From assembly GCF_000380105.1 (NCBI RefSeq), contig NZ_KB904448.1, forward strand, positions 1-64,000: DNA of 64,000 bases. The letters run 5' to 3'. Positions 39,576 to 47,554 of the stretch are shown here, one piece after another (within the stretch, counting starts at the first letter, position 1; each line of letters starts with the position of its first letter). The notes under the pieces are model-generated. The model saw nothing but the letters and a program-made list of their open reading frames with translations. It had not been told where the DNA came from and did not search any database. This DNA comes from Streptococcus orisratti DSM 15617. GTDB taxonomy: Bacteria > Bacillota > Bacilli > Lactobacillales > Streptococcaceae. Position numbers and translations under genes: made by a program.

Positions 39576-39606
39576 GGTTTTGTTCTCCTCTTCTTTTGTT
39601 GTGTAC

Positions 39607-39635
39607 ATATTAACTCTAAAGGAGACTTATATCCA
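39607..39635 (-). promoter_or_regulatory. Phage promoter, copy 1 of a duplicated cassette
   Basis: Minus strand TGGATA (39630-39635), 17-bp spacer, TAATAT (39607-39612), then TACACAACAAAAGAAGAGGAG leading to the start. The copy at 45002-45030 has an altered spacer sequence but exactly the same length. Confidence 0.65.
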
Positions 39636-44754: not shown

Positions 44755-44777
44755 AAAAAAAGCCCAACCCTTGGGCT
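44755..44777 (-). terminator. Terminator between the 60-aa gene and metK
   Basis: On the minus strand AGCCCAA-GGG-TTGGGCT (7-bp stem, 3-nt loop) is followed by TTTTTTTCG. It lies 10 nt past the stop of the small gene and 13 nt before the metK start, so metK transcription would need read-through or its own promoter. Confidence 0.8.
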
Positions 44778-44787
44778 AGGCTTTGGT

Positions 44788-44970
44788 TTATTTTACTGAT
44801 TGACGACCTGCTTCGTAGGCTCTCTCCAATGCTCTTTTGATTCCCCAAACCGAAACATCGTAGAAATCGAGGTTGTCGCTCCAACGTTTTTCCAAAGTTT
44901 CAACTTGAAGTTCTTCTTTAGCAATCTCTGTTAAAATGGCATTGAGTTTTTCTTGTTGACGCTTTGTCAT
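44788..44970 (-). CDS. Small phage protein (DUF6900-like)
   Basis: A 60-aa helical protein (MTKRQQEKLNAILTEIAKEELQVETLEKRWSDNLDFYDVSVWGIKRALERAYEAGRQSVK is the full product; its key part is the VSVWGIKRALERAYEAG block). That block resembles a small Firmicute phage family I know as DUF6900, with modest confidence. ATG 44970 follows GAAGAGGAGAAC; the longer frame is leader. It is transcribed from the duplicated promoter at 45002-45030 and ended by a terminator. Confidence 0.6.
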   Translation of the reverse strand: MTKRQQEKLNAILTEIAKEELQVETLEKRWSDNLDFYDVSVWGIKRALERAYEAGRQSVK

Positions 44971-45001
44971 GGTATTGTTCTCCTCTTCTTTTGTTGTGTA
45001 C

Positions 45002-45030
45002 ATATTAACTCTAAAAAGGAGATATATCCA
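45002..45030 (-). promoter_or_regulatory. Phage promoter, copy 2 of a duplicated cassette
   Basis: Minus strand TGGATA (45025-45030), 17 bp, TAATAT (45002-45007). The -35 is weak, as in activator-dependent promoters. The 11-bp-period array at 45096-45167 lies 66-137 bp upstream. Confidence 0.65.
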
Positions 45031-45095
45031 GTCATTACTGGGTATTTTTTATCTTTTTTGACACTTACAATTCTACCACAAATTTTGACAAAGTG

Positions 45096-45167
45096 AGGTC
45101 AATGTTAGGTCACACTTAGTGCAGGGGTAGGTTACTGGTAGGTCAAGGGTAGGTCAGGGAGAGGTTA
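45096..45167. repeat. Seven AGGTCA-type repeats with exact 11-bp period
   Basis: Units start at 45096 (AGGTCA), 45107 (AGGTCA), 45118 (AGTGCA, degenerate), 45129 (AGGTTA), 45140 (AGGTCA), 45151 (AGGTCA) and 45162 (AGGTTA). Several share a GGGT or GGT lead. All sites face the same side of the helix. The last unit reaches into the stop codon of the HTH gene at 45165. It could be an activator/initiator binding array or part of an origin. Confidence 0.75.
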
Positions 45168-45641
45168 CTTTTCCAAAGAAAATCCCATCTTCATATTCAC
45201 TTCCCTAACATGGTCTAAGACCTTACGACGCCAATTTCTAACAGTACTTCGACTAATATGAAACTCTCTCATCAAACTATCCCAATTACTATCTGTCTTA
45301 AGCATGGATTGCGCAAAATCATACAAATCTCCCTTTAGAAATTTTAAAGCCATCTCAAAATTATCAAGGTCATTAGCCAATCGGATATATCGTTGCGATA
45401 AATCCGCCAATTGTTCCTCATTTTCCTGAATCATCTTCTCACGAAAATTCAGTGCAATCATCTCTGACCGTCGATTGGTAGGTGTACTTTTAACTCTAGG
45501 TTCATCAGATTTTTCAAAAACGAGTGAACCAATAACCTCATTTTCTGTCACTGGTTTGAAATGTTCCAAACGATACTTTAACATCTCCAAGTCACTTTTG
45601 AGTTCATTGTAATTCGTCAGTATGTGCTCTGCCTTATCCAT
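45165..45641 (-). CDS. Phage sigma-like/ArpU-type HTH regulator
   Basis: A 158-aa protein. Most of it is helical (HILTNYNELKSDLEMLKYRLEHF, EMIALNFREKMIQENEEQLADL). A C-terminal helix-turn-helix (MLKTDSNWDSLMREFHISRSTVRNWRRKVLDHV) resembles sigma region 4/DUF1492-ArpU late regulators of streptococcal and enterococcal phages. It lies beside the seven-repeat array and upstream of the structural genes in transcription order, so it is a fair candidate for the late-gene activator. RBS AGGAGGGGC, overlapping the SNF2 gene by 8 nt. Confidence 0.7.
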   Translation of the reverse strand: MDKAEHILTNYNELKSDLEMLKYRLEHFKPVTENEVIGSLVFEKSDEPRVKSTPTNRRSEMIALNFREKMIQENEEQLADLSQRYIRLANDLDNFEMALKFLKGDLYDFAQSMLKTDSNWDSLMREFHISRSTVRNWRRKVLDHVREVNMKMGFSLEK

Positions 45642-47272: not shown

Positions 47273-47554
47273 CGTTCTAAATCCTTTCATCAAATTGAAG
47301 TGTGTAGGTCTAGTGCAGTCATTTCCAAAACTCCTCTTATAGGCTTTTTTATAGTAATTTTTGCTTATAGGATAGTTTTAGAAAAGACCATAATAGACCT
47401 ACATAAAATCAAAAAATGTCACTCATGTTGGTCGTTTAACTAATTTGTTCTAGTAATTAGAATTTATTAGTTTTTGACAAAGGGGCAACGACCGACACGT
47501 TTCCAATCTCTATCGACCTCTGGTGTGGAGGTAGACCGTAAAAAATGTCGGTCA
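47273..47554. other. Non-coding interval with inverted repeats between primase and VRR-NUC
   Basis: It holds TGTAGGTCTA (47303-47312) and its exact inverse TAGACCTACA (47394-47403), two TTATAGG direct repeats, and GACCTCTGGTGTGGAGGTAGACC near 47515-47537. The AGGTC core recalls the array at 45096-45167. Placed next to the primase-helicase gene, it is a candidate phage replication origin. No gene is seen. Confidence 0.5.

Follow-up and report, generated by a model that had tools for sequence, protein, structure and literature searches.

What is the function of a row of seven short, similar sites, set exactly 11 base pairs apart, that directly adjoins the gene for a small helix-turn-helix (HTH) protein in a prophage of Streptococcus orisratti DSM 15617? 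An earlier note on this DNA had drawn attention to the row within the window (that is, the entire 64,000-nucleotide stretch of contig NZ_KB904448.1 analyzed here), and had suggested that it might correspond either to an activator array for late transcription or to an initiator array. The first of these suggestions is supported below as the likeliest reading, and the second is the weaker one.

Position, units and periodicity of the array

The proposed operator array spans positions 45096..45167 and comprises seven units with an 11-bp period and the consensus TGACCT-N5, arranged head to tail on the minus strand. From the outermost inward, these are unit 1 (TAACCT, 45162..45167), in which the regulator gene's own TAA stop lies (45167-45165); unit 2 (TGACCT, 45151..45156); unit 3 (TGACCT, 45140..45145); unit 4 (TAACCT, 45129..45134); unit 5 (TGCACT, 45118..45123); unit 6 (TGACCT, 45107..45112); and the promoter-proximal unit 7 (TGACCT, 45096..45101), which lies within the -35 region. 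The array therefore adjoins the HTH gene as originally described, with that gene's stop codon inside the outermost unit, while the strand on which its units are read was corrected to the minus strand, which is that of the gene.

Direct reading and a repeat search both established that the intervals between the unit starts (45096, 45107, 45118, 45129, 45140, 45151 and 45162, all as first claimed) are exactly 11 bp, and Tandem Repeats Finder reported period 11 over parts of the array. At a lag of 11 the array produces 32 matches out of 49, the best lag-11 site of the 64-kb window; 300 simulated 64-kb windows (first-order Markov) gave a maximum of 30 such matches and none reached 32, with the qualification that this statistic was picked only after the array had been seen. 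The pattern TGACCTN5TGACCT, at no more than two mismatches, has 14 occurrences in the window where 4.92 would be expected, five of the 14 being inside the array, and the exact pair is found at three places in the bacterium's own genome, two of them in the array. The array and its exact 11-bp period are thereby confirmed as real. Near the array the Rfam hits belonged to two microRNA families, scored well short of the family cut-offs, and were taken as chance; literature searches, which most subscription papers lay beyond, returned no title that reports the array.

The unit at 45118 had been described as degenerate. Its sequence is TGCACT, and the same hexamer forms the third unit from the promoter in all 26 loci of the window's cluster of relatives (defined below) and in five of the seven loci of the cluster of L021; since it is held at a fixed third position across loci, it is a conserved variant and not the product of random decay.

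The adjoining promoter and downstream region

An extended -10 element of the proposed late promoter, TGTGGTAGAAT, is located at 45070..45080 on the minus strand, with its hexamer (TAGAAT, 45075-45070) placed 20 bp from the last unit of the array. There is no recognisable -35 at this promoter, and sigma-70-type consensus scans list nothing there. Transcription would be expected to start about 7 bp past the hexamer, near 45063, and relative to such a start the array would extend from approximately -104 to -33.

Sites near a promoter can also repress, and the array might accordingly bind a repressor or an autoregulator, with the protein silencing the promoter and causing no late activation; the overlap of the outermost unit with the regulator's stop codon could be read in the same way. 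However, a promoter that has no recognisable -35 and carries an array in that slot has the layout of an activator-dependent promoter, and promoter P23 of phage phi13 is inactive once its repeats are deleted, according to the accessible part of its description (PMC13123087). Repression is consequently regarded as a very improbable account.

The earlier note had instead paired the array with a promoter at 45002-45030, some 50 bp beyond the extended -10. That element (TGGATA-17-TAATAT, identified by eye) is part of a leader block at 44975..45040 on the minus strand, of which 35 bases (44975-45009) recur identically at 39580-39614 on the same strand, the two copies forming the leaders of two different small genes; moreover, a diverged version of the element persists in a relative, L062, in which the array is lost. 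For these reasons the pairing was rejected in favor of the adjoining promoter at 45080-45070, which holds a distance of 20-22 bp to the array across clusters. The leader element could be a second promoter.

The first open frame past the promoter (44788..45003, minus strand) encodes 71 aa as listed, corresponds to DUF6900, and is annotated with a later start in relatives. It is followed by an intrinsic-terminator-like hairpin (44759..44784, minus strand) directly before the SAM synthetase gene and 286 bp downstream of the -10; upstream of metK, the motif (G)GGCTTTT is present in 29 of 32 loci, with at most six loci per cluster looked at. Because of this hairpin, which may attenuate late transcription, late transcripts would need read-through, and because terS additionally lies about 6 kb from the array promoter, control of the late operon is something that we infer.

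The array among related phages

A homologue of the regulator is present in 107 phage records, 51 of them at less than 60% identity. A set of 80 loci (window included) was assembled from viral contigs, genome contigs and phage records, the regulators were grouped at 90% identity into 18 clusters, and one representative per cluster was tested for its lag, with z-scores derived from single-base shuffles. An 11-bp array is found in ten of the 18 clusters, corresponding to 71 of the 80 loci, and each of those 71 loci has three or more units spaced in register at 11 bp. In nine representatives (those of the window, L021, L032, L033, L034, L036, L037, L040 and L042), a lag of 11 is either the top lag around the stop codon or second only to its double, 22, with lag-11 z-scores of 4.5-9.5. 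In the tenth, L039 (Javan405), the array (z 9.3) lies further on, past a toxin-like gene annotated YdcE, so that it adjoins the -10 while the toxin-like gene is found between array and regulator gene. A YdcE- or MazF-like gene also directly follows the regulator in L044 and L045, and similar genes were recognised by eye, from sequence only, in L062-L064.

The 11-bp array is absent from seven clusters (L060, L062/L063, L043, L044, L045, L064 and L046). Four of these (L043, L044, L045 and L064) are gut or metagenomic phages whose regulators are 25-28% identical; L046 displays a period of 12 instead of 11 (z 4.6); and L062 and L063 have lost both array and -10. Loss of the array with retention of the gene and promoter, which had been named as the outcome that would count against the proposal, was observed at a single locus, L060, where the regulator gene and the -10 are kept and the array is reduced to about one unit. 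At positions 1990-2030 of L060, a TGACCT-type -10 stands behind a different regulator type, in an arrangement suggestive of a recombination scar.

Of the 80 loci, 72 contain the extended -10 pattern, and it occurs in all ten array clusters. Its distance from the last core, taken as the register that yields the most units among 16-27 bp, is constant within each cluster: 20 bp in the TGACCT and TGAACT clusters, 21 bp in L036, L039, L040 and L042, and 22 bp in L032 and L037. The distance from stop codon to hexamer, in turn, changes by whole turns. In the window's cluster it is 89 bp in 17 loci, 78 bp in six, and 100, 111 and 133 bp in one each, all of which equal 1 modulo 11 (26 of 26 loci); steps of 11 bp likewise separate the values in L032 (83 bp in 15 loci and 94 bp in six; 21 of 21) and in L021 (78 bp in two and 89 bp in five; 7 of 7), and account for six of seven loci in L036 (63 bp in two, 74 bp in three and 85 bp in one). 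The odd value in that last cluster, 62 bp, belongs to L067, which carries a natural 1-bp deletion inside its array relative to L066, such that its outer units are shifted.

Across the ten clusters the counted units number from 3 to 11. Since the low counts of L067 (three) and L009 (four) result from that deletion and from two changed cores, respectively, intact arrays are taken to contain 5 to 11 units. Many of the loci are near-identical, the 26 loci of the window's cluster amounting to 19 distinct arrays. An alignment search that used a 14-row alignment returned no conserved stretch.

Motif classes, spacers and the putative recognition helix

The motif of the array varies with the type of regulator (TGACCT, TGAACT, GTACT, CGAACT or GGTACT), while its period does not. 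Information content was calculated over distinct arrays, and the following core values are to be read with the understanding that units were accepted by positions 4-6, leaving only positions 1-3 and the spacer unbiased: cores and spacers carry 1.63 and 0.73 bits, respectively, in the window's cluster (137 units, 19 distinct arrays), 1.54 and 0.66 in L021 (20 units), 2.00 and 0.24 in the TGAACT arrays (13 units), 1.77 and 0.78 in L039 (13 units), 1.77 and 0.91 in L040/L042 (24 units), 1.54 and 1.39 in L032 (26 units), 1.59 and 1.49 in L037 (12 units), and 1.55 and 1.34 in L036 (27 units). Five of the eight motif groups thus have spacers clearly freer than their cores; in the other three, where part of the spacer is fixed, the difference is slight. 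The comparison that had been proposed as a check, namely whether the period is kept in relatives while spacer bases vary, accordingly came out in favor of the original suggestion, given the period in ten of 18 clusters and the clear freedom of spacers in those five groups.

These observations also bear upon the idea of the array as a passive, functionless tandem duplication. Copy number does shift by whole units, as slippage would produce, and a scan of viral sequences (described below) recovered 55 stretches with exact TGACCTN5 triplets, a number of which are simple tandem repeats. Against this, the cores are kept while the spacers differ, the period stays the same where clusters differ in motif, and a fixed distance separates the array from the -10; furthermore, in Javan51 and Javan639 the regulator extends to 165 aa, the TGAACT array takes in its final codons, and the cores run unbroken through that coding end. 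Passive duplication is the least credible of the explanations considered, with very little chance of being correct.

The residues of a helix at approximately positions 129-137 of the regulator vary along with the motif: ISRSTVRN accompanies TGACCT (33 loci, one of which reads ISRSTIRN), ISRGTVHN accompanies TGAACT (two loci), SHSTLAYR accompanies GTACT (23 loci), SRSTISYR accompanies CGAACT (seven loci), SRMTVSRY accompanies GTTACT/GGTACT (four loci), and SRSSITRW accompanies GGTACT (two loci). This pairing of motif and helix is consistent with co-evolution but is not proof of it, as shared descent could yield the same pairing.

The 158-residue regulator

The proposed activator is encoded at 45165..45641 on the minus strand and is predicted to consist of long N-terminal helices followed by a C-terminal, sigma-region-4-like HTH. 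Nearly its entire length (residues 1-157 of 158) matches PHROG 36, 'transcriptional regulator' (E=1.5e-26). Its Pfam matches, several of them to HTH families, all fall below the curated cut-offs; neither the ArpU (TIGR01637) nor the RinA (TIGR01636) model of NCBIfam is listed for it at E<=1, PHROG 2198 (Alt-like) is not listed at E<=0.01, and a sigma region 2 model is absent from its listed family matches. The isoelectric point is 6.1 for the whole protein, which is therefore not basic, and 9.4 for its last 55 residues.

An AlphaFold model built from a 14-row alignment (mean pLDDT 81.6, pTM 0.67) places helices at residues 3-26, 33-40, 57-100, 105-113, 120-127 and 131-157, with residues 41-49 unreliable. 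A Foldseek search of the PDB with this model returned nothing at E<=0.001; a sigma32 complex headed the list (E 0.12), sigma region 4 structures (3hug, 6onu, 4g6d and 2h27; E 0.6-3.2) ranked best among single domains, and KorA and FixJ appeared as well. VIA-align superimposed the model on 2h27, which is sigma E region 4 on -35 DNA, with Z 7.7 (69 residues, 2.4 A), and on 3hug with Z 7.7 (78 residues, 3.4 A), while the response regulator DesR, the second-best match, scored Z 8.7 (56 residues, 1.1 A). A viral structure library contained no match at 0.001, and its best matches (E ~0.002) were phage proteins, several of them named 'Sigma-70, region 4' or DUF1492; a profile search of PDB sequences gave a single match below 0.01, to a sigma factor, in two weak stretches (E=6.7e-5). 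The modelled HTH is of a sigma-region-4-like fold that is not specific to sigma factors, because DesR outscores the sigma structures and middling Z values of this kind are common for helical models. Of the earlier description of the protein as sigma/ArpU-like, the first half fits this fold, and the protein falls in PHROG 36, while the NCBIfam ArpU model is unmatched.

The gene order (primase, nuclease and helicase, then regulator, then array and -10, with functions assigned from sequence and from the annotation of relatives) raises the further possibility that the array is a set of iterons, in which case the adjacent protein would serve as replication initiator and the AT-rich DNA found beyond the array as melting region of an origin. 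The position of the gene after those for replication functions agrees with that explanation, as does a weak match of the protein to PHROG 277, 'replication initiation O-like' (E=0.0021). The principal family match, however, is to the transcriptional regulators of PHROG 36; each of the ten array clusters has an extended -10 at 20-22 bp from the array; the array of L039 goes with the -10 and not with the gene; and those studied phages that possess a layout of regulator, repeats and promoter use it for late transcription, so far as the accessible part of the relevant report indicates (PMC13123087). An iteron function is, on balance, hardly to be expected.

The wider family and searches by DNA pattern

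When 148 genomes from the order and 151 from the class were searched for PHROG 36, every one gave a match, as did 12 of the 14 control genomes; host sigma factors apparently account for this, and the mere presence of such a match is therefore uninformative. From 56 fetched loci, 51 with open reading frames of 125-210 aa furnished 46 representatives below 60% identity for a lag test, from which L203-L206, the window itself and five further loci more than 60% identical were left out. A lag of 10 or 11 near the stop codon (p<0.01) was detected in nine of the 46, with about one expected, versus at most three of 184 control segments; examples are TTGGCACA at 10 bp (L181) and TTATTAGA at 11 bp (L190). 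The other 37 representatives gave no lag-10 or lag-11 signal at the sensitivity of the test. A spacing of one helical turn may be general in the PHROG 36 family.

Scanning a viral collection for exact TGACCTN5TGACCTN5TGACCT produced the 55 stretches mentioned above, among which a number are plain tandem repeats with identical spacers. Regulators were found in two of them: L095, a relative by BLAST, and L104, which encodes a sigma-like PHROG 36 protein (E=3.2e-17) with no BLAST similarity to the regulator in the window and no match in phage records. The layout of L104 consists of a 150-aa open reading frame, 6 bp, an array of four TGACCT units and one TGAGCT at 11 bp, a further 21 bp, and TATAAT. 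An open reading frame of 100-230 aa ends close upstream in ten of the 55 stretches, of which the PHROGs scan covered L104 and L123 (an integrase). As only two of 55 stretches yielded regulators, the exact pattern was rejected as a specific marker of them. Other viral contigs (L088, L100, L102 and L122) carry four or five TGACCT units spaced 11 bp apart, with no such regulator recognised by eye among the nearby open reading frames.

A corresponding scan of Streptococcus for three consecutive TGANCTN5 units matched four of 284 genomes, and a relative of the regulator was present in the fetched stretch of all four, on which basis the spreading of arrays unaccompanied by the regulator was rejected within this genus. 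The S. orisratti genome itself fails this strict pattern, being interrupted by its TAACCT and TGCACT units, and the scan therefore misses arrays of that kind.

An inverted repeat at 47.3 kb

The earlier note had also regarded AGGTC cores at 47303-47403 as related sites. These proved to belong to a long hairpin between the primase and nuclease genes (47295-47415, minus strand; -35.7 kcal/mol, z -6.84), whose two inverted arms they form, and not to a phased array. Membership of this repeat in the same system was rejected, because the GACCT of its right arm is lost in four of 14 aligned relatives that possess TGACCT arrays. Its sequence is strongly conserved in 14 aligned sequences, none of its 38 pairs is changed on both sides among those 14 (that is, no covariation is seen), and it is possibly a regulatory RNA or an origin.

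A model for the array and its implications

The observations described above (the array and its period, its tie to one regulator family, its fixed distance to the -10, and the change of its motif at constant period) are very probably explained if the array is the operator of the adjacent phage activator at a late promoter, in an arrangement where binding, start site and late-gene control, along with self-association and contact with polymerase, are deduced rather than seen. Copies of the 158-residue protein would bind the TGACCT units head to tail, perhaps with self-association through the long N-terminal helices, and would all occupy nearly one face of the DNA, since the units are 11 bp apart. 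The promoter-proximal unit would fall about 33-38 bp before the expected start, in place of a -35, and because of this placement the last bound copy could hold RNA polymerase at a promoter that offers only an extended -10, thereby switching on genes that run toward the terminase and structural genes. Switches of this type are already known; the number and wording of the sites drift between phages, and the spacing is fixed.

A bolder version of this proposal, which we hold only tentatively and consider rather doubtful, is that the array represents a row of stand-in -35 elements, along which free-standing sigma-region-4-like domains would form a one-sided, head-to-tail filament, one domain per helical turn, with the innermost taking the -35 position; that the number of turns (5-11) would act as an evolvable gain control for late genes; and that HTH and motif would drift together under a fixed spacing of one turn (10 or 11 bp) throughout a large family of phages of Gram-positive hosts. 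The motifs TGAACT, CGAACT and GGAACT, which we take to resemble the -35 elements of extracytoplasmic sigma factors, would fit such a scheme.

An operator class known from few phages becomes a readable code, in which regulator and operator are paired at 71 loci in ten clusters, and natural variants (in unit number, in the 1-bp deletion of L067, and in the loss of the array from L060) make phasing, cooperativity and the matching of HTH to motif testable. The DNA pattern by itself, though unspecific, is suggested as a handle on late activators that sequence searches miss, such as that of L104.

Comparison with known systems

The response regulator PhoB binds the pho box as head-to-tail direct repeats 11 bp apart that stand in for a -35; it is a two-component regulator of unrelated architecture, and its likeness to the array described here would be one of working mode. 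Among phages, the relative L046 (Geobacillus phage vB_GthS_PK3.5) similarly displays a RinA-family regulator immediately followed, by eye, by a tandem array of TTGCACT and a -10-like TATATT, and differs in its 12-bp period and in a protein that is only ~21% identical.

All surveyed phages of S. thermophilus encode a regulator of ArpU or Ltrb type, as stated in the accessible part of that survey (PMC5601072). The Ltr regulators are described, in the portion of the source available, as small (~130 aa), basic proteins with a repeat region in the target promoter (PMC13123087); the proposed target promoter described here likewise contains a repeat region, and the protein has 158 aa; its pI, however, is 6.1. 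Since it is not basic as a whole and is not matched by the family models, this regulator is kept outside the Ltr, ArpU and Alt classes.

In phi13, again from the accessible part of the same description, the gene for Ltr lies upstream of its own promoter, as does the gene in the window, and deletion of the repeats at -107 to -42 abolishes the activity of P23 (PMC13123087). The array in the window would cover approximately -104 to -33 relative to the expected start, and overlaps the stop codon; it comprises seven 11-bp units, whereas phi13 has three perfect repeats of 18 bp and a further partial repeat (PMC13123087), and the resemblance drawn here is one of layout as described there.

In TP901-1 (AF304433), the gene for Alt similarly precedes a promoter with imperfect direct repeats, and Alt is reported, in that same available portion, to bind four of these at -76 to -32 (PMC13123087). 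Our own examination of this phage, treated as an outgroup, demonstrated that 11 is the top lag after the alt stop codon (z 3.2), that alt lies before terS, and that the pI of Alt (6.3) is close to that of the regulator in the window. The two systems differ in that TP901-1 possesses four imperfect repeats of another motif versus seven clear units here, and in that Alt belongs to PHROG 2198, reaches only E=0.005 to PHROG 36, and is not alignable with the 158-aa protein (BLASTP E=56; profile comparison probability 1.8%, P=0.027). By analogy with these phages, the best reading is that the regulator and array of S. orisratti would work in the manner of TP901-1 Alt and phi13 Ltr.
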